Both the position numbers and the translations under genes were made by a program. Shown in pieces: positions 18,055 to 32,826 of a DNA stretch of 34,062 nt. The stretch's first letter is position 1, and every line of letters begins with the position of its first letter. The notes beneath the pieces are model-generated. The model was not told where the DNA came from, searched no databases, and saw only the letters and a list, made by a program, of their open reading frames with translations. The stretch is from Cytophagales bacterium (GTDB lineage Bacteria; Bacteroidota; Bacteroidia; Cytophagales; UBA9547), in NCBI GenBank assembly GCA_014376535.1, contig JACMRH010000089.1, positions 1 through 34,062 of the forward strand, given 5' to 3'.

Positions 18055-18651
18055 CTACTTAAAGGAAAGATCTGTGTCTTGCGAGTTTATATTTTCGAGC
18101 CAGGTTCGAAATTGTAAAAATGTAGCGCAGGCAGTAGAGATGATCTGATCATCCTCTTGAAATTTCTGATTATAAGTAGTTAAGGATTCACAAAATATTT
18201 TCCACTTAGTACTTGTGTCCATCCCATAACCATAAAAAAAAGACCCACCCGATTCAGGTCCAATGTTCAATTTTTCCTGTAGAACTGCAGATATAAATTT
18301 TCCCCCTAAGGTCGAACCTTCCATTACATACAGTGCACCAAACGATTCGCTTAAACTGCTGATTTTGGGAACGACATTAGCATTAGTCATTTGAATTTTC
18401 TGACCTAAAAACTTTAAATCCCCTATAAGTAAAGCTGCTTTTCTTCTGTCTATATAATCAACTAAAACATGTTCAATTCCAGTATGTTCCAACTGTTTTT
18501 CAAGTTGAGAAAAAAAAGTATAAAACTTTTTTAAGATGGTTATGTAGGCTTCAATAGTAATATCTTTTGTCCTGAAATGACCTAATAAAGGTGTATTCTC
18601 AAGCATGGAATGCATTTTTAAAGTACTTTCCTTTAAATGTTGTAAGATCAT
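18055..18651 (-). CDS. bphO: Biliverdin-producing heme oxygenase (BphO-like)
   Basis: MILQHLKESTLKMHSMLENTPLL..., SFGALYVMEGSTLGGKFI, and position directly downstream of the phytochrome. Confidence 0.85.
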   Translation of the reverse strand: MILQHLKESTLKMHSMLENTPLLGHFRTKDITIEAYITILKKFYTFFSQLEKQLEHTGIEHVLVDYIDRRKAALLIGDLKFLGQKIQMTNANVVPKISSLSESFGALYVMEGSTLGGKFISAVLQEKLNIGPESGGSFFYGYGMDTSTKWKIFCESLTTYNQKFQEDDQIISTACATFLQFRTWLENINSQDTDLSFK

Positions 18652-18702
18652 TTTCTATTAAAAATTTGTAAAAAAATAATAACAATATTTCAAAGTCTCA
18701 AA

Positions 18703-21291
18703 TTAAATTGTCCATTCAAATTTGAATAATGCTCCATGTCCTGGCTCTGATTCGACCCAAATGCGTCCATTATTTTTTTCAATCAGGGATTTTGTAGTAT
18801 GGAGCCCAATGCCGGTACTGTTATTTTCTTTTCCGGTATCGTACAAGTTAAAAATTCGCTGATGGTATTCTTTTGAAATCCCATAACCGTTATCTTTCAC
18901 AAAAAACTGTATAAAAGTGTCATGCATTTCAGAGATCCCTATTTCAATCTCACATATACCCTCCTTATTACAGCCATAGCGGATAGCATTGCTTATTAAA
19001 TTTGAAAACACTTGTTGTAGTGTATTTTTATTGGTTTGAATCACTGGCATATTCTTTTCTAATGAATATTTAATCCTGCTTTTATCCGGATTTAACCATT
19101 TGAAAACATCTTCTAAAAGAATATTTAAATCAACCTCAGATAATTCAATTCGATGTTGTTTTGCCTGAGACAATAAGCTTGAGATAAATAAATCCATCTT
19201 TGAAATAGACTCCCTGATCAAACTAAAGACTTCAGTATTTTCCTCATGTTTAACAAAATCTGTATTTTCTTCCAAAACATTGATTAATCCCTCAATGCCT
19301 TTAATTGGTGCTTTTAAATCGTGAGCAACTAAATTAGTGTAGTCATCCAGCTGTTCATTTATACTTGCTAATACGTTAGATTTTTCTTTCATTTTGGTAA
19401 CATCCGTACCAATGATTATATACTTATACTTTTGTTTGTCGATATTTTTCACTCTGGATACATTGAAATTAAGGTAAGTACCTTTATCTTCTCTGTGTAG
19501 CAAAATATCAGTTTTAAAGGCACTTCTTTTTACATTACCTTTAGATTTTGAGTCAGTCACAATTATAATGTTTTCAGACGATTTCAAGATCTCAGCAAAG
19601 GTTTTACCAGTAACATCTTTTAGTTGCATTCCTGAATAATCGGAAAAGGACTGATTTACCCATTCCACTCGCCCGTGCTGGTTCAATGTGAGAACTGCAT
19701 TTCCTGTTCTTTGAGCAATGATAGATAATTTGTAAACTTCTTCTTCTGCAATTATCCGTTTTAGGATTTGGGATCGCAGTATTATTTCTAGAATGGATTT
19801 AAGCAGGTTGTGGGCTATTTCTATTTCTATATTAGTCCATTTAAGACTGTTGTGCCGTTTTTTTTCTATATAAAGGCCAAATGAATTTCTAGGATGTAAT
19901 GCCGCCAGGTCATTTGGAAGGCCACTGGCGTAACCTGGATCTCCCGCCCATTTGATGGTTTGGACGTATTCTTTTCTAAATCCGATAATATAATATTTAT
20001 GATCTCCGGAGAGGGGCAGAAAGATCACGCCACTTGCCAAGTTTGAATACTCTTGTGCTGGCGGGAATATATTAGCTAATTCGTGAGAGAAAAAAAATTG
20101 CTGGGGATGAGCATTTTTATACCATTCCATCATCTCCTCCACAAATTTCTTTGGAGGTGTAGCACCTATACGATTATAAGTGTTTTCGTACAATATAACC
20201 GCTCCTGTTAGATTCAGCAATTGTAGAATGTTTACTTTTCCATCTGATAAGCCTGAAACAAAATCGCCTGTATAAGACATAAATCTTGTCATTTCCCCCA
20301 ATTTGTCAAAAAGTTCTATTCGTTTTGTCAGCAAATAATGGCTTTCCCGCGTAGTGACCAATTCTGAGATAAGATTAGATAACAATCCAAACACCGTTCT
20401 TAATTCATAAGATAAATGCTTAGGTGTATTGTGATGACATGCGATTATTCCCCAAAGCTGTTGATCTTTAACAATTGGCACTGACATAGATGCTTGTACA
20501 CCCATTTTTTTCAAATATTCTAAATGGACACTGGCGACACTTCTCAGATTGCAATCGGATAAGTCAGTAATGCCATTAATTGATTTGTTTATAGGAGGTA
20601 TAAGCTGCTGATCTTTATCATTGATATCCGGTATCATGCGATAAGGATTTTTCAAGTAAAGTTGTCTTGCTTGCCTGGGAATATCTGAAGAAGGGAAATG
20701 AAAGCCTAAATACTCCTGTTTCCCGTTTACAGAAGCTTCACCCAGAACCTGGCCATTCCAGTCTTCATCAAACCGATAAATCATTACCCTGTCAAAAGAG
20801 GACAATGACATTAGATTTTCTGCTGCCTTTTGACAGATCTCTTCCATTGACCCTGCTACCTTTAAGACGGCAGAGAAATATTCTATCTCCTGGTAAAGTT
20901 TTGTGAATGATAGGGTATTATCATTGTTACTTTCTTCAAGTTCAAAGAGAACATATTTATCCTTAATATGCAGAGTGGCCCTAAATCGGGTAAAATGTTG
21001 TTTTAAAACAATATCAAGATCAATCGAAATATGATCCTCTACATTTTTATTCTCAATTTTCTTTCTGACTTCTTCATACTGAGTGACTGATAAAAAATCT
21101 TTAAAATTCCGTCCCTCAAAGTCTGTATTTGTTAATTTTAAAAGCACCAGAAAGTTCTCAGACCATTGAAGGATTTTTAAATTATAATCGGTGACCAAAA
21201 GGTATCCATATCCTTGTATTAAATTAGTGAAGTTTAGAGGAATGTTTTCACAAACTTCAGAATCAAACTTCCCCTTAATGTCTATGTGCAT
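18703..21291 (-). CDS. bphP: Bacteriophytochrome histidine kinase (PAS-GAF-PHY-PAS-HisKA-HATPase)
   Basis: N-terminal Cys in SEVCENIPLNFTNLIQ; FPSSDIPRQARQLYLKNPYRMIPDI; LRSVASVHLEYLKKMGVQASMSVPI; WGIIACHHNTPKHLSY; PHY tongue motif WAGDP...HPRNSFGLYIE; H-box VAHDLKAPIKGI; NLISNAIRYG; DNGYGI; GIGL. Confidence 0.95.
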   Translation of the reverse strand: MHIDIKGKFDSEVCENIPLNFTNLIQGYGYLLVTDYNLKILQWSENFLVLLKLTNTDFEGRNFKDFLSVTQYEEVRKKIENKNVEDHISIDLDIVLKQHFTRFRATLHIKDKYVLFELEESNNDNTLSFTKLYQEIEYFSAVLKVAGSMEEICQKAAENLMSLSSFDRVMIYRFDEDWNGQVLGEASVNGKQEYLGFHFPSSDIPRQARQLYLKNPYRMIPDINDKDQQLIPPINKSINGITDLSDCNLRSVASVHLEYLKKMGVQASMSVPIVKDQQLWGIIACHHNTPKHLSYELRTVFGLLSNLISELVTTRESHYLLTKRIELFDKLGEMTRFMSYTGDFVSGLSDGKVNILQLLNLTGAVILYENTYNRIGATPPKKFVEEMMEWYKNAHPQQFFFSHELANIFPPAQEYSNLASGVIFLPLSGDHKYYIIGFRKEYVQTIKWAGDPGYASGLPNDLAALHPRNSFGLYIEKKRHNSLKWTNIEIEIAHNLLKSILEIILRSQILKRIIAEEEVYKLSIIAQRTGNAVLTLNQHGRVEWVNQSFSDYSGMQLKDVTGKTFAEILKSSENIIIVTDSKSKGNVKRSAFKTDILLHREDKGTYLNFNVSRVKNIDKQKYKYIIIGTDVTKMKEKSNVLASINEQLDDYTNLVAHDLKAPIKGIEGLINVLEENTDFVKHEENTEVFSLIRESISKMDLFISSLLSQAKQHRIELSEVDLNILLEDVFKWLNPDKSRIKYSLEKNMPVIQTNKNTLQQVFSNLISNAIRYGCNKEGICEIEIGISEMHDTFIQFFVKDNGYGISKEYHQRIFNLYDTGKENNSTGIGLHTTKSLIEKNNGRIWVESEPGHGALFKFEWTI

Positions 21292-26051: not shown

Positions 26052-26924
26052 TCAATGCAAAACATACCCCACCCCTAGCTCAATAGAATTCTGGAAAGCA
26101 GGGACCAATTTAAAAAAGGAAGAGTTATAATTAAATGTGATGTTAATCCGGTCCGTTTCAGAATCAAGAGAAAATTCAGTATACAATGAAATTCCGGAAT
26201 TGGAACGGTAAATAGAACCAATCCCAATACGTTCCCTATAAAATATAGAGCTTCCAACAAGAAACTCATCCGGGATCAATGGCAAAATCCTGTACAAACC
26301 ATAATACTTCCATTTCCAGTTTATATCAAGGTCCGATTCGTCGGAAATATGGACATGATAATACCGTTTTGCTTCAAGCTGCCCAGCATACGGCCTTGCT
26401 TTAGAATTCAATAATTGCAAGCCTGCAAACCCAAACTGCAACCTGTTCCATTTCAGCACACTACCAGCTGAAGCATCAGGAAGAAAAAAATTGATATTTC
26501 CTGCCGCAGAAACACCCGTGTAGTGCATACTTATAAAACCACCTGCAACTCCAACAGCGAGTTTTACAGTCTCCCCAAGTGGCACCTCTAATGCATAGTT
26601 GGCATATCCTCTGGGACTTGAAATATATGGCCCTTGCTTTTCATTGGAAGCAGTTAAACGAATGGAATGGACTGAATTATTTTTCTGAGTATAAAGTTTC
26701 GCTGCTGAACATGTCAAAGTAGCAACTTCAGTAAATTCACCTGTTTGAAATTTGTAGTAGGCAGTAAGGTCAGTTTTGGCGTTGTCTGGTAGATAAGCTG
26801 CATTTACCATGTACATATTTACATCATATCTTGAATAAAGGTCTGGACTAATCACATTGGTAAGCTGGCACCAGCCAGGGCGCAGAAAAAAAACAAAAAA
26901 GATGATGAATAATATTCTTGACAA
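26052..26924 (-). CDS. PorP/SprF family type IX secretion-associated outer-membrane protein
   Basis: Signal peptide ending PGWCQ; SPDLYSRYDVNMYMVNAAYLP at the N-terminus; beta-strand-rich sequence ending IELGVGYVLH. Confidence 0.75.
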   Translation of the reverse strand: MSRILFIIFFVFFLRPGWCQLTNVISPDLYSRYDVNMYMVNAAYLPDNAKTDLTAYYKFQTGEFTEVATLTCSAAKLYTQKNNSVHSIRLTASNEKQGPYISSPRGYANYALEVPLGETVKLAVGVAGGFISMHYTGVSAAGNINFFLPDASAGSVLKWNRLQFGFAGLQLLNSKARPYAGQLEAKRYYHVHISDESDLDINWKWKYYGLYRILPLIPDEFLVGSSIFYRERIGIGSIYRSNSGISLYTEFSLDSETDRINITFNYNSSFFKLVPAFQNSIELGVGYVLH

Positions 26925-27045
26925 GCTTAGACCAAATTTTTATATCAAATTTATATTTTAAACTTTATTCCGTTACAAATAACTTAACCGCTGGGTATTG
27001 GAACTAAACGTTGGAATTTGGGCAATGACAGCAAATAAATTTTGA

Positions 27046-27621
27046 GTGAAGGTAACAGAAAATAATATCGCTGAACTAATAAGAAATGGAAATGATAAAG
27101 AGGCGATTCAGTGCTTGTATAAAAATGTACTGCCCAACTTTAAAAGATTTGTAAAAAACAATAATGGTCCAGCTGAAGATGCCTTTGACATATTTCAGGA
27201 TGCCTTAATCGCTTTTTACCAAAGTGTGATAAATGGAAAGTTCGATCCGCAATACAAGGTTTATGGTTACGTCTACAAACTTTGTATTTACAGGTGGATA
27301 AATAAAATGACCCGGGAAAAGCTACAGTTCAAAGACGAACTTCCAGACATACAAATGGAAACACCAGTATATTGGTTCTCAGAAAATAGTATAAAAGACG
27401 AACAAGTTTTGCTAAAGGAACTTTTCTCTTCGATTGGTGAAAAATGTTTAGAGCTGTTGAATTATACTATTTTTAAAGAAATTCAGATGGAAGATATCAT
27501 GTTGCGGATGAATTTTCCGTCCGAAACTTCTGTAAGGATGCAGAATATGCGCTGTAAAGAAAAACTGGTACTGGAAATAGAACGCAATCCCGGATTGCTA
27601 TCCAAACTGAGAAAATTATGA
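27046..27621 (+). CDS. RNA polymerase sigma-70 family (ECF) sigma factor
   Basis: GTG start; EDAFDIFQDALIAFYQSVINGKFDPQYKVYGYVYKLCIYRWINKMTRE is a sigma region 2 pattern; C-terminal region 4-like segment. Confidence 0.85.
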   Translation: MKVTENNIAELIRNGNDKEAIQCLYKNVLPNFKRFVKNNNGPAEDAFDIFQDALIAFYQSVINGKFDPQYKVYGYVYKLCIYRWINKMTREKLQFKDELPDIQMETPVYWFSENSIKDEQVLLKELFSSIGEKCLELLNYTIFKEIQMEDIMLRMNFPSETSVRMQNMRCKEKLVLEIERNPGLLSKLRKL

Positions 27622-28706
27622 ACGAGAAAGACCTTAATATAAAGATTGAAAGCTATCTCAATAGGAATATGCCCGACGATGAGATAATTGGTTTTGAGTC
27701 AGAAATCTCTCAAAACCAAACGCTTGCGGATAAGGTTGAGACATTTCGCCTTGCAAATCTGGCATTGACCAGAAATAAATTGTGGGTAGTAAAAAATATT
27801 TCCAATGCTATAAACGACGAACACATAAAAGCTTCTAAAATTAAGAAAACGGTTCTTATTCTTTCGGCTCTCACACTTTTGGGAATCGGAATCGCATCTG
27901 CAATTTTAATTAAAGAAGAAAAACCAAATGAAATTATAAAAAGCAATTCGAAAATATCGAAGGTTGAAACTACCAAAACTGAAAACAAGCAAGCTATAAC
28001 ACAAAACCTTCAAACAAAAAAGACAAACAAACCAGCTAGAAAAGAACTTCAAAATTTAGTACGTCCTACTAAAATAAAGGAAAACAATATTGTATATACT
28101 CCTGCTGAAGTAGAAAATAAAACTGTGGTGCCGCAAAAAACAGCTGACATTAGTAAATCTATGATTCCGGCATATAAGCAAAAACCTGAAGATTCCCGAC
28201 CTGATAACATATGCAGGACCATTTCTATTGATGCCTTTATTTCTGCCGAAAAAGCATGCTTTAATGAACAAAATGGAAGAATTTCAGTCTCCGGTTTTAA
28301 AGGAGGATCAGAACCATACATATATAAAGTTCTCGACCAGGCGAAACAAAATATTTCCTCAACCAAACTTGCAGCGGGAATTTATTCTGTAATCATAACT
28401 GACAGCCGCAATTGTCAGAAATTAATTGAAGGTATTATTATAAAGGAAGAAAACTGTAAAAGGGATCTGGAACTGAATGCTTCAAACGGAGACGAAGTAG
28501 AATTCGGAACCGCAGATCAGGAAGTTTCATTTACGGTTTATGACAAAGGGGGAAATATATATTTTGATGGACAGTTTGCCTCCGGAGAAAAAATTAAATG
28601 GAACGGCATTTCCGCAAAAGGGGAAATTAAAAGTGGCTATTTTATCTTTACTTTGAAATACCAGGATGGAAAAATTCATAAAGGATCAATCACTGTGATT
28701 AAATAA
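27618..28706 (+). CDS. Single-TM putative anti-sigma factor with SprB-repeat-like and type-B T9SS (CHU_C-like) C-terminal region
   Basis: ATGA overlap with the sigma gene; short N-terminal soluble domain; TM VLILSALTLLGIGIASAILI; Lys/Thr-rich linker; CFNEQNGRISVSGFKGGSEPYIYKV...TKLAAGIYSVIITDSRNCQKLIEGIIIKEE (SprB-like); VSFTVYDKGGNIYFDG...SGYFIFTLKYQDGKIHKGSITVIK (CHU_C-like). Confidence 0.75.
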   Translation: MNEKDLNIKIESYLNRNMPDDEIIGFESEISQNQTLADKVETFRLANLALTRNKLWVVKNISNAINDEHIKASKIKKTVLILSALTLLGIGIASAILIKEEKPNEIIKSNSKISKVETTKTENKQAITQNLQTKKTNKPARKELQNLVRPTKIKENNIVYTPAEVENKTVVPQKTADISKSMIPAYKQKPEDSRPDNICRTISIDAFISAEKACFNEQNGRISVSGFKGGSEPYIYKVLDQAKQNISSTKLAAGIYSVIITDSRNCQKLIEGIIIKEENCKRDLELNASNGDEVEFGTADQEVSFTVYDKGGNIYFDGQFASGEKIKWNGISAKGEIKSGYFIFTLKYQDGKIHKGSITVIK

Positions 28707-28713
28707 TGACCTT

Positions 28714-30345
28714 ATGAAACTCATACATTTACTTAAAAATAGTTGGAGAGAACAAATGGTCTTGTTCAATTTAATAGTTTGCTCCACCCTTTCTTACGGA
28801 CAAACTGTTTCTTTGCCAGACACCAATTTCCGTAATTTTCTAAAAAAAAATTATCCAGTTCTGATAGATTTTAATGGTGACTTAATTATTGCTGAAGCAG
28901 GAAAAGTAACGGGTGAAATAATCGGCTACAGCCAGAAAATTTCTAGTTTGGAGGGTATCCAATTCTTCACTAAAATTCAGGGCCTGAACTTTTCAAAGAA
29001 TAATTTAAAGTCAATACCTGATATCAATGCTATGAAAAATCTGGAAGTGCTAAATATTTCGAACAATAAGCTCGAAAACCTTCCATCACTCTCAGGCTTA
29101 AAAAAGATTAAAGCACTTATTGTACCTGTTAACTTTTTACAAAGGCTCCCCGATTTATCTTTAAATGATTCTTTGGTTAGATTAGACCTTCATTCTAACC
29201 TCATTGACACACTAACAGATCTTAGTAAACTTGTTCGTCTGGACTACCTGAATATTTTGAATAACCAGGTACGGTACATACCCGGCCTTGATAAATTGGT
29301 TTTGCTCGATACTCTTATTATCTGGAGGAATAATTTGCTAAAACTACCATCACTTGAAAATATAAATAAACTGGCGAAACTGGATGCTTCACAAAACAAG
29401 CTTGACAAGGTTCCAGATTTTGGCTCAGAACCTGCTGTCCAAATACTTCTACTGGATAGAAATAACCTCAGCACATTACCCGACTTTTCTATTTATAAAA
29501 AGCTTTCAAAAGTAAATATTTATGGCAATAAGCTAAGTTTCAAAGAACTGACTAAATTAACTTTCAAGGCAGGTTATGACACACTTTTCGATATCTCACC
29601 TCAGCAAACATTTCTGGTAGGAAAGAAACTGCAATCAATAGAAGGTGAAAAAACTATATTAAGCACAGGCATAGACCAGAATACTGCAGGTGTTACGTAT
29701 GAATGGTTTAAAAACGGGTTCTCATTCAGTACAGTTACCAATGACAGTCTTAAAATTATTAACACTTCTTTTCAGGATTCAGGAAAATATATCTGTGTAA
29801 TAAAACATCCTTCGTTCCCAAATTTTGCATTACAAACAGACACTTTTGTCGTTTCTGTAAAATCATGTGTGGATGTGCAGTCATTATCAACCTCAGTAAC
29901 TGATATAATCTGCAAAAAGGCCGGAAGCTTGTTTGTTATGGCCCCTTCAAAGAATAAATATACTTATGAATTAAAAAGCCCTGTTACACAAAAAATCTTT
30001 ACATCAACTACAGGCCGTTTCGATGGCTTGACAGAACCTGTTTATAAGTTAAGTGTCAAAACCTCGACAGGATGTAGCAAGGCCTATCCTGTTGATATAA
30101 AAATTCCTGGATCCAGTTGCAAAGATTACCTCATAACACCTGACAACGATGGCAACATGGATACCTTCTTTTTTGAGGCAAGCGGAAAAGTAGAAATCTT
30201 CGACAAAAGAGGAAACATGGTCAAAAGATTAAGCATTCCTTCAGAGTGGGATTGTTCTTCTGACAAAGGAAAAGTGGCTAGCGGTTATTATATCGCCAAT
30301 ATCAACGATGGAGAATCTCAAATAGGCTTGAGTATTGTTTATTAA
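28714..30345 (+). CDS. Secreted leucine-rich-repeat protein with Ig-like domain and type-B T9SS (CHU_C-like) C-terminal domain
   Basis: Signal peptide; about 8-10 LRRs (e.g. LEVLNISNNKLENLPSLSGLKKI); Ig-like GVTYEWFKNGFSF...DSGKYICVI; C-terminal YLITPDNDGNMDTFFFEASGKVEIFDKRGNMVKRL...SGYYIANINDGESQIGLSIVY. Confidence 0.85.
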   Translation: MKLIHLLKNSWREQMVLFNLIVCSTLSYGQTVSLPDTNFRNFLKKNYPVLIDFNGDLIIAEAGKVTGEIIGYSQKISSLEGIQFFTKIQGLNFSKNNLKSIPDINAMKNLEVLNISNNKLENLPSLSGLKKIKALIVPVNFLQRLPDLSLNDSLVRLDLHSNLIDTLTDLSKLVRLDYLNILNNQVRYIPGLDKLVLLDTLIIWRNNLLKLPSLENINKLAKLDASQNKLDKVPDFGSEPAVQILLLDRNNLSTLPDFSIYKKLSKVNIYGNKLSFKELTKLTFKAGYDTLFDISPQQTFLVGKKLQSIEGEKTILSTGIDQNTAGVTYEWFKNGFSFSTVTNDSLKIINTSFQDSGKYICVIKHPSFPNFALQTDTFVVSVKSCVDVQSLSTSVTDIICKKAGSLFVMAPSKNKYTYELKSPVTQKIFTSTTGRFDGLTEPVYKLSVKTSTGCSKAYPVDIKIPGSSCKDYLITPDNDGNMDTFFFEASGKVEIFDKRGNMVKRLSIPSEWDCSSDKGKVASGYYIANINDGESQIGLSIVY

Positions 30346-31127: not shown

Positions 31128-31353
31128 TTACCATTTGTTAAGCTGCATAGCTTAAAATTCAGACAGTAAAACTCCTTTAAAATTGTTGATGTGCGGCAAA
31201 CTCCGCGTATTTTTTAAAACTTAAGGTGATTTCCTAAACCTATAAAAAAAAGTTCCGTTAGATAATTGAGAATCTGTAATCTTATTGTTATCTTATATCC
31301 GATTACAAATATTAGAAGAGTTCTACTTTGCATTTTATTCAGTCAATATAAAA

Positions 31354-32826
31354 ATGAATACTATTTCATTAATATACAGGTCATTTACAACTTTAATTGT
31401 TTTGACTATTTCACCATTTCTCTTTGCCCAGAATTTGTACAACAATGTTCAATTAACGGTAAACGGAACATCAACTTTGTTTGTAGCTAATCAATTTACC
31501 AACGAAACATCTGCTGTTTATGTAAATGATGCTACCGTTACTATAAATGGAGATATTACAAATAATCAAACTACTGCAATGACAGGAGCAGGACTAACCA
31601 ACGTTTTAGGTACGTCTGCTCAGCAGTTTCTTGGTAATCAAACCTTTTTCACAAACAATCTTATTTTAAATAATACATCTGCAGGTACCAGTAATTTTTT
31701 ATTTAATGGTTCCAACAATTTTACAGTTGGTAACTCTGCAACATTTACAGATGGTATTATTGTAACAAATACTAATAATATCACTTTTAATAATAACGCT
31801 ACTCACTCAGGTGCAGGCAATGTATCTCATGTAAAAGGTTTTGTTAAAAAAATTGGAAATCAATCTTTTGTGTATCCTGTAGGAGATGGGACTACTTTAA
31901 GGACAGCCGCAATTTCGGCTCCTTCATTGTCTACAGATGCATTTACTGGTAAATACATTCAAGCTAATCCCAATACCGCTTCTTTCAACCCGGCAAGCAA
32001 ACAACCCGTCTTGGATGTTGTATCCACTTGTGAATATTGGACAATAGACAGGACCACTGGTTCGAGCAATGTTTCTGTCACACTCTCCTGGCTTAATAGC
32101 AGCCCATATAATTGTCTGGGAACTGTTGCACCTACCGATTATTATACTGCCCGATGGGATACGGATAGTACAAAATGGATTAGCCATGGCAATGGTTCTA
32201 ACACCGGTACAAGCGCAAGTGGAACTATTACAACAAATTCGCTTCCAACTAAATTTGGGCCTTTTACCCTCGCTGTGCGAAATATTCCTCTGCCAATATC
32301 TCTGACTTATTTTAATGGCAAAATTACCAACGAGGGCAATCGGCTTTTCTGGAAAGTATCAGTAGAAGAGAATACAAAGAAATATTCTGTTGAAAAAAGC
32401 TGCGATGGAAAAAATTGGAATACGGTAGGCTTCGTACCTGCCAGTGGCACTCACTCGGCTAAAGATTATTCATTAACAGATACTGATCCTTGTGAAGGTT
32501 TAAATTATTACAAATTGGTTGAGTTTTCAGGAAATGATATCCGGGAAGAATACGCAGTAATTAGTATTATAAATGATAAAGTTTTAAAAGCTGATTTTCA
32601 GATATTCCCAAATCCTAATAGTGGAACCTTTAGCGTATTTATAAATGGGGAAGAAAAGCTTAGTTACCAAATGGAAATGATTGACGTGGTAGGGAAAATT
32701 GTAAGTAAAAAGTCCTTACAGAATGGGTTAAATATCATCGAATGTTCCGATTTGGCATCAGGAGTTTATTTCTCACAATTTAAATTGGGCAAAAACAAAA
32801 TAACAAAGAAAATTGTAGTCAACTGA
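31354..32826 (+). CDS. Secreted Asn/Thr-rich protein with type A T9SS sorting domain
   Basis: Signal peptide MNTISLIYRSFTTLIVLTISPFLFAQ; C-terminal ADFQIFPNPNSGTFSVFING...LASGVYFSQFKLGKNKITKKIVVN. Confidence 0.85.
   Translation: MNTISLIYRSFTTLIVLTISPFLFAQNLYNNVQLTVNGTSTLFVANQFTNETSAVYVNDATVTINGDITNNQTTAMTGAGLTNVLGTSAQQFLGNQTFFTNNLILNNTSAGTSNFLFNGSNNFTVGNSATFTDGIIVTNTNNITFNNNATHSGAGNVSHVKGFVKKIGNQSFVYPVGDGTTLRTAAISAPSLSTDAFTGKYIQANPNTASFNPASKQPVLDVVSTCEYWTIDRTTGSSNVSVTLSWLNSSPYNCLGTVAPTDYYTARWDTDSTKWISHGNGSNTGTSASGTITTNSLPTKFGPFTLAVRNIPLPISLTYFNGKITNEGNRLFWKVSVEENTKKYSVEKSCDGKNWNTVGFVPASGTHSAKDYSLTDTDPCEGLNYYKLVEFSGNDIREEYAVISIINDKVLKADFQIFPNPNSGTFSVFINGEEKLSYQMEMIDVVGKIVSKKSLQNGLNIIECSDLASGVYFSQFKLGKNKITKKIVVN

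Follow-up and report, generated by a model that had tools for sequence, protein, structure and literature searches.

The closest described relatives of the system considered here fall into two groups, i.e. regulatory systems built around an ECF sigma factor and pairs of T9SS cargos with their outer-membrane carriers. Among the former, the Dma proteins of Bacteroidota (PMC13088901) combine an N-terminal anti-sigma domain, one transmembrane helix, a long disordered tether and a C-terminal outer-membrane-related module with an adjacent ECF sigma factor, whilst Fec-type signalling (FecA-FecR-FecI; PMC9249621) joins a co-encoded outer-membrane barrel, membrane-bound anti-sigma factor and ECF sigma factor. 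In Porphyromonas gingivalis, an ECF sigma factor is under the influence of a T9SS protein that bears a CTD, by way of PorA-PorXY-SigP, a two-component route that controls T9SS machinery genes (PMC7712824). Cognate PorP/SprF carriers recognise type B CTDs and keep hold of them at the surface (PMC12618676, PMC9143113, PMC12635249), known pairs being SprB-SprF, Fjoh_3952-3951 and PG1035-PorP (PMC12618676, PMC9143113). Little is understood of how Bacteroidota cells are informed about the proteins that the T9SS has placed on their surface, the known link, PorXY-SigP, governing the secretion machinery and not single cargos.

The locus described here lies in a window of 34,062 nucleotides from a Cytophagales bacterium (contig JACMRH010000089.1) and shares features with each of these systems. 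Its anti-sigma factor shows the Dma elements listed above, the N-terminal anti-sigma domain being a putative one, but where Dma proteins have a C-terminal beta-barrel of their own it ends in two beta-sandwich-like domains of T9SS-cargo type, the barrel (PorP) being a separate gene; membership of the Dma family was rejected because the AF2 model has no barrel on the anti-sigma chain. The likeness to Fec-type signalling is a mechanistic analogy, in which PorP/SprF replaces the TonB-dependent receptor and the extracytoplasmic module is T9SS-cargo-like; the Pfam hits reported for the window protein and 38 relatives include no match to the FecR domain, and the barrel gene beside sigma is a PorP/SprF and not a TonB receptor partner, so that a Fec-type receptor system was likewise set aside. 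PorA-PorXY-SigP differs in that the CTD does not belong to an anti-sigma factor. As in the type B pairs, an SprB-like plus CHU_C-like tail is found with a PorP/SprF gene nearby, and the LRR protein encoded next to the anti-sigma factor fits as an ordinary cargo of this kind; unlike such cargos, the anti-sigma factor is anchored in the inner membrane, lacks a cleavable signal peptide and a sorting motif, and has an ECF sigma factor attached. The open-access literature, a scope that leaves out most subscription journals and bioRxiv, yielded no published description of a sigma/anti-sigma/PorP/cargo cassette; its novelty is provisional, and we suggest that in gliding soil and water bacteria it is an undescribed way to monitor a surface protein complex.

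The sigma/anti-sigma pair and its cassette

The ECF sigma factor (27046-27621, + strand) was identified by profiles (TIGR02937, E 8.3e-8). The Pfam match to sigma region 2 is weak for the window protein alone, Sigma70_r2 being present in 19 of 19 relatives, and the family profile matches the SigW structure (E 1.3e-8) as well as other ECF sigma structures. The stop of this gene overlaps by 4 bases with the start of the anti-sigma factor (27618-28706, + strand; an open reading frame of 362 aa), for which AF2, using 38 relatives, predicts helices at residues 3-14, 20-32 and 34-98, such that the helical part runs through the transmembrane segment. This prediction, the overlap with sigma and a weak match of the NCBIfam 'anti-sigma factor' model to 5 of the 38 relatives (best 2.5e-4) point to residues 1-79 (27618-27854, + strand) as a putative sigma-binding cytoplasmic domain, which would sequester sigma. 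Residues 80-98 (27855-27911, + strand) constitute a single transmembrane helix, at the same position in relatives, with a mean Kyte-Doolittle value of 2.51 against 0.67 for the next best segment. Four K/R residues precede this helix and three follow it, an inside-positive signal that is slight in the window protein alone and clearer in most relatives. No cleavable N-terminal signal peptide is present in the window protein, helix 80-98 being its sole hydrophobic helix.

Gene neighbourhoods were read at 38 loci and then at 40 more in the Cytophaga-Sporocytophaga family, giving 78 distinct anti-sigma sequences; the presence of PorP played no part in locus selection. An ECF sigma gene adjoins the anti-sigma gene in 78/78 loci. 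The first-pass annotation of 27618-28706 as a putative anti-sigma factor anchored in the membrane is supported, its partner being an ECF sigma factor. On the far side of sigma, 75/78 loci have a PorP/SprF gene (71 divergent, 4 on the same strand), and a homologous cargo lies directly downstream of the anti-sigma gene in 61/78, no cargo being recognised in that position in the other 17. In the window, the PorP/SprF-family outer-membrane barrel is divergently encoded at 26052-26924 (- strand; PF11751, E 3.6e-24). The C-terminal Cys-x-Cys motif, which ties SprF to the gliding track (PMC12635249), is found in 0/70 cassette PorPs, suggesting that these belong to static complexes. At one locus (L042:3170-4044) the cassette PorP is split into two same-strand open reading frames (122 and 167 aa), possibly by a frameshift or an assembly error.

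The region upstream of sigma contains a GTTAC (26972-26976, + strand) that is a candidate -35 element of an ECF promoter, on enrichment grounds that are weak for this one site: the motif occurs in 14/38 such regions against about 3.9 expected, and TTACTT in 17/38 against 3.4 expected. These counts suggest that a promoter before sigma is conserved and perhaps autoregulated. No enrichment of a matching sigma-type promoter was found facing porP.

The genome that the window comes from yields nine matches, the window protein included, and many further matches come from other Cytophagales (named ones include Cytophaga aurantiaca and Sporocytophaga); genome G446 has five such genes. The window's genome also has, at L032 (G000:C77:500-11500), a pair of adjoining sigma/anti-sigma/PorP cassettes, both complete, which suggests a recent local duplication. 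Paralogous sigma/anti-sigma sets whose anti-sigma factors bear extracytoplasmic modules are familiar from RsgI/SigI. That system, from cellulolytic clostridia, is Gram-positive and uses carbohydrate-binding modules, with no outer membrane, PorP or T9SS (PMC6056542). Outside Cytophagales a tailed anti-sigma factor was found once, in genome G486 from another order of the class, although absence outside the order is weakly tested by phylum and class searches that scored 5-6 candidates per genome. In G486 (locus L184) a single same-strand run comprises the tailed anti-sigma factor, its sigma, PorP and a small CTD protein that carries TPNDDG, so that the association persists although cargo and gene order are different.

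In five sigma/anti-sigma pairs whose N-domain is related but whose tail is of another kind (L074, L077, L078, L185, L186), no PorP was seen in the stretches read, three of which are about 3.5 kb. Four of these (L074, L077, L078 and L186), from other families of the order, have anti-sigma factors of ~285-300 aa and adjoin an FtsX-like gene; such a pair may be the ancestral scaffold that received the CTD-like tail. The fifth (L185:4015-5601), from another order, is a 528-aa anti-sigma-like protein with a very different long C-terminal part.

A tail homologous to that of the neighbouring cargo

Beyond the helix, residues 99-198 (27912-28211, + strand) form a disordered tether, with AF2 pLDDT about 40 from residue ~100 to ~185-192. 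The linker remarked upon in the first-pass annotation as K/T-rich is, at the level of the family, rich in K, S, T, E and P; an NCBIfam 'LAPAL' match to it was taken for low-complexity chance. The tether measures 104±9 aa in 69 relatives, and its pairwise identity (28.4%) equals that of a shuffled-tether control (27.9%), so that it is conserved in length and not in sequence. By our own estimate this length is in principle sufficient to cross the periplasm.

The remainder of the protein is predicted as two beta domains of ~80 residues each (195-280 and 282-361), mostly with pLDDT >90. The first, an SprB-like beta domain at residues 199-280 (28212-28457, + strand), is assigned from Pfam SprB matches in relatives and from the alignment of four conserved cysteines that set its bounds; the second, residues 281-362 (28458-28703, + strand), is a CHU_C/type B CTD-like domain from which the TPNGDG sorting motif is missing, as judged by Pfam, hhalign and motif counts. 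For the window protein alone, both Pfam matches are below the curated cut-offs, namely SprB (PF13573) at 213-239 with E 0.014 and CHU_C at 301-360 with E 0.0056 (6e-4 with only the tail as query), the latter starting at profile position 27 of 86. Among the relatives, CHU_C is matched in 27/38 (best 4.4e-9) and SprB in 22/38 (best 9.9e-8), 14/38 match the type B sorting domain TIGR04131, and a six-frame whole-genome search placed several members of the anti-sigma family above the Pfam CHU_C cut-off. Compared by hhalign with a canonical CHU_C profile, itself built from only 7 domains, the family CTD profile gave a probability of 98.2 (E 5.8e-14), whereas the N-domain control reached only 0.3; in the PDB, the best match by sequence is to the C-terminal end of GhpA, a surface adhesin of Aureispira (E 2.4e-26). 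These family-level profiles rule out chance resemblance, and the initial description of the tail as SprB plus CHU_C-like is upheld. Three shorter relatives (L038, L053 and L068; 305-310 aa) are without the SprB-like domain and keep the CHU_C-like end, marking the CTD-like domain as the constant part.

The gene directly downstream (28714-30345, + strand) encodes, on Pfam and AF2 evidence, a secreted LRR-Ig protein with a signal-peptide-like N-terminus, LRRs (LRR_4, E 9.3e-14), an Ig domain (Ig_3, E 3.7e-5) and an SprB-like plus type B CTD tail (CHU_C, E 6.7e-4), and is modelled with pLDDT 91.8. We would expect this cargo to be exported by the T9SS and anchored on the cassette PorP at the surface; the presence of a T9SS follows from that of SprA in the same genome, where three separate SprA_N matches (contigs C451, C339 and C9) perhaps stem from two or more T9SS translocons, or from an assembly that is fragmented or mixed. 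Comparison of the two tails, as the first-pass annotation had recommended, aligned the families over the last 170 residues by hhalign with a probability of 99.3 (E 2.5e-20, 151 columns), the cargo part corresponding to residues 385-543 (29866-30342, + strand) and containing a TPDNDG motif. Four cysteines align one to one (199, 214, 266 and 280 in the anti-sigma factor; 385, 400, 454 and 469 in the cargo), with conservation of 0.90-0.95 in the anti-sigma factors and at least 0.87 in both sets. On the strength of these alignments the anti-sigma tail is a homologue of its neighbour's tail over both domains.

This homology bears on the possibility that the protein is an ordinary ligand sensor, whose Ig-like periplasmic domain binds a glycan or envelope component while PorP and cargo are regulated genes that never touch it. 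Such folds are indeed generic, FlgD_ig also being matched in 18/38 relatives and a structure search with the anti-sigma model, which adds little, returning Ig-like folds of unrelated proteins; regulators and their target genes are, moreover, often neighbours. We nevertheless regard this explanation as unlikely in view of the specific relationship to the two-domain tail of the cargo, including all four cysteines, and of the occurrence of PorP with tailed anti-sigma factors and its absence, in the stretches read, beside five related ones with other tails.

The two tails differ at the start of the CTD, where a sorting motif of the TPN-x-DG (TPNGDG) type is found in 46/61 neighbouring cargos and in 0/78 anti-sigma factors, FNPxxGExW standing in its place across the anti-sigma family; the missing start first noticed in the window protein is thus a family-wide property. 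With no sorting motif in 78/78, the tail is unlikely to be a working secretion signal. The same count weighs on an arrangement, improbable in our judgement, in which the T9SS carries the tail to the cell surface, where PorP retains it, the anti-sigma factor spanning both membranes by means of a tether that is, as estimated above, in principle long enough. Up to the tether the layout is that of the Dma proteins (PMC13088901), but the missing motif is joined by a result from F. johnsoniae, in which secretion was blocked whenever one of five conserved type B motifs was mutated (PMC12618676). By our own reasoning, the SprA channel could also hardly release a chain with an inner-membrane anchor.

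Possible coupling of the carrier to the sigma factor

A cargo-type tail, a tether long enough for the outer membrane and a private PorP together suggest that the anti-sigma factor reads the state of the carrier. Our leading interpretation, to which we assign a probability of about 0.45, is accordingly of a trans-envelope sigma/anti-sigma system wired to a type B T9SS carrier, in which the tail would inform sigma of the condition of the cognate PorP-cargo complex. Docking and signalling are what we infer from the observed linkage and tail homology, and might proceed as follows. The tail would be a non-secreted copy of the cargo docking domain, not exported because the sorting motif has been lost, that extends to the outer membrane from its periplasmic side and touches, as a captive look-alike, the same PorP as the cargo or the PorP-cargo complex. 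This contact could be altered as cargo is loaded or lost, or as the LRR domain binds a ligand, with the anti-sigma factor placed under tension or exposed to proteolysis as a result, and the sigma factor so freed would transcribe its own operon (sigma, anti-sigma, cargo).

In favour of this scheme are the 78-locus cassette, the tail homology, the arrangement at L184, the lack of PorP, in the stretches read, beside the five related pairs with another tail, the fixed tether length without sequence conservation, the loss of the motif in 78/78, the published recognition of type B CTDs by cognate PorP/SprF carriers (PMC12618676, PMC9143113) and the promoter-like element. Against it, the carrier is likely, although not certain, to meet the CTD on the extracellular side (PMC9143113), so that a tail docking from the periplasm would have to use a different face of the barrel, and 17/78 loci have no recognised downstream cargo. 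Nor does a mirror-tree analysis single out the tail-PorP contact: the residual tail-PorP correlation (0.21-0.26) is not above that of N-domain versus PorP (0.21), and covariation was therefore rejected as proof of docking, being insufficiently specific. The cassette evolves as a unit, and gene co-inheritance explains most of the agreement between trees.

The residual distance correlation between cargo CTD and anti-sigma CTD is 0.24-0.28, which would also suit a periplasmic cargo sensor, i.e. a tail that associates with the tail of unexported cargo and signals stalled export, PorP being there only for the needs of the cargo. The two homologous tails do resemble a duplicated, potentially self-associating module. 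This seems to us unlikely, given that PorP is kept in 75/78 loci while 17/78 are without a recognised cargo directly downstream, and that L038, L053 and L068 have dispensed with the SprB-like domain.

Returning to docking on the carrier, the notion of a cargo mimic put forward in the first-pass annotation survives insofar as the tail is homologous to a type B T9SS cargo tail, specifically that of 28714-30345, whereas its docking is still conjectural; likewise the partners then proposed, PorP/SprF and the LRR protein, are co-encoded in dozens of loci, their contact with the tail being a matter of inference. 'Secretion load', the signal suggested at that stage, is one of several readings, and the pattern of one PorP to each cassette makes the sensing of one cognate PorP-cargo pair a better fit than the sensing of general T9SS load. 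A little more tentatively, T9SS surface complexes may be monitored one by one in a new class of trans-envelope signalling, each PorP and LRR cargo having a private ECF sigma factor and an anti-sigma factor with a captive, non-secreted copy of the docking tail, in ~5-11 copies in several Cytophagales genomes. Such docking, if it occurs, would give every surface complex a separate feedback route to transcription, and studies of type B carrier recognition would find in each cassette a ready specificity set (tail, cargo CTD and PorP).

Elsewhere in the window, the protein encoded at 31285-32826 (+ strand) carries a T9SS sorting tail of type A (PF18962, E 8.4e-13) and is an ordinary type A cargo. 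On the opposite strand, a heme oxygenase-like open reading frame (18055-18651) lies beside one resembling a bacteriophytochrome histidine kinase (18703-21291), both recognised by eye within 18055-21291.
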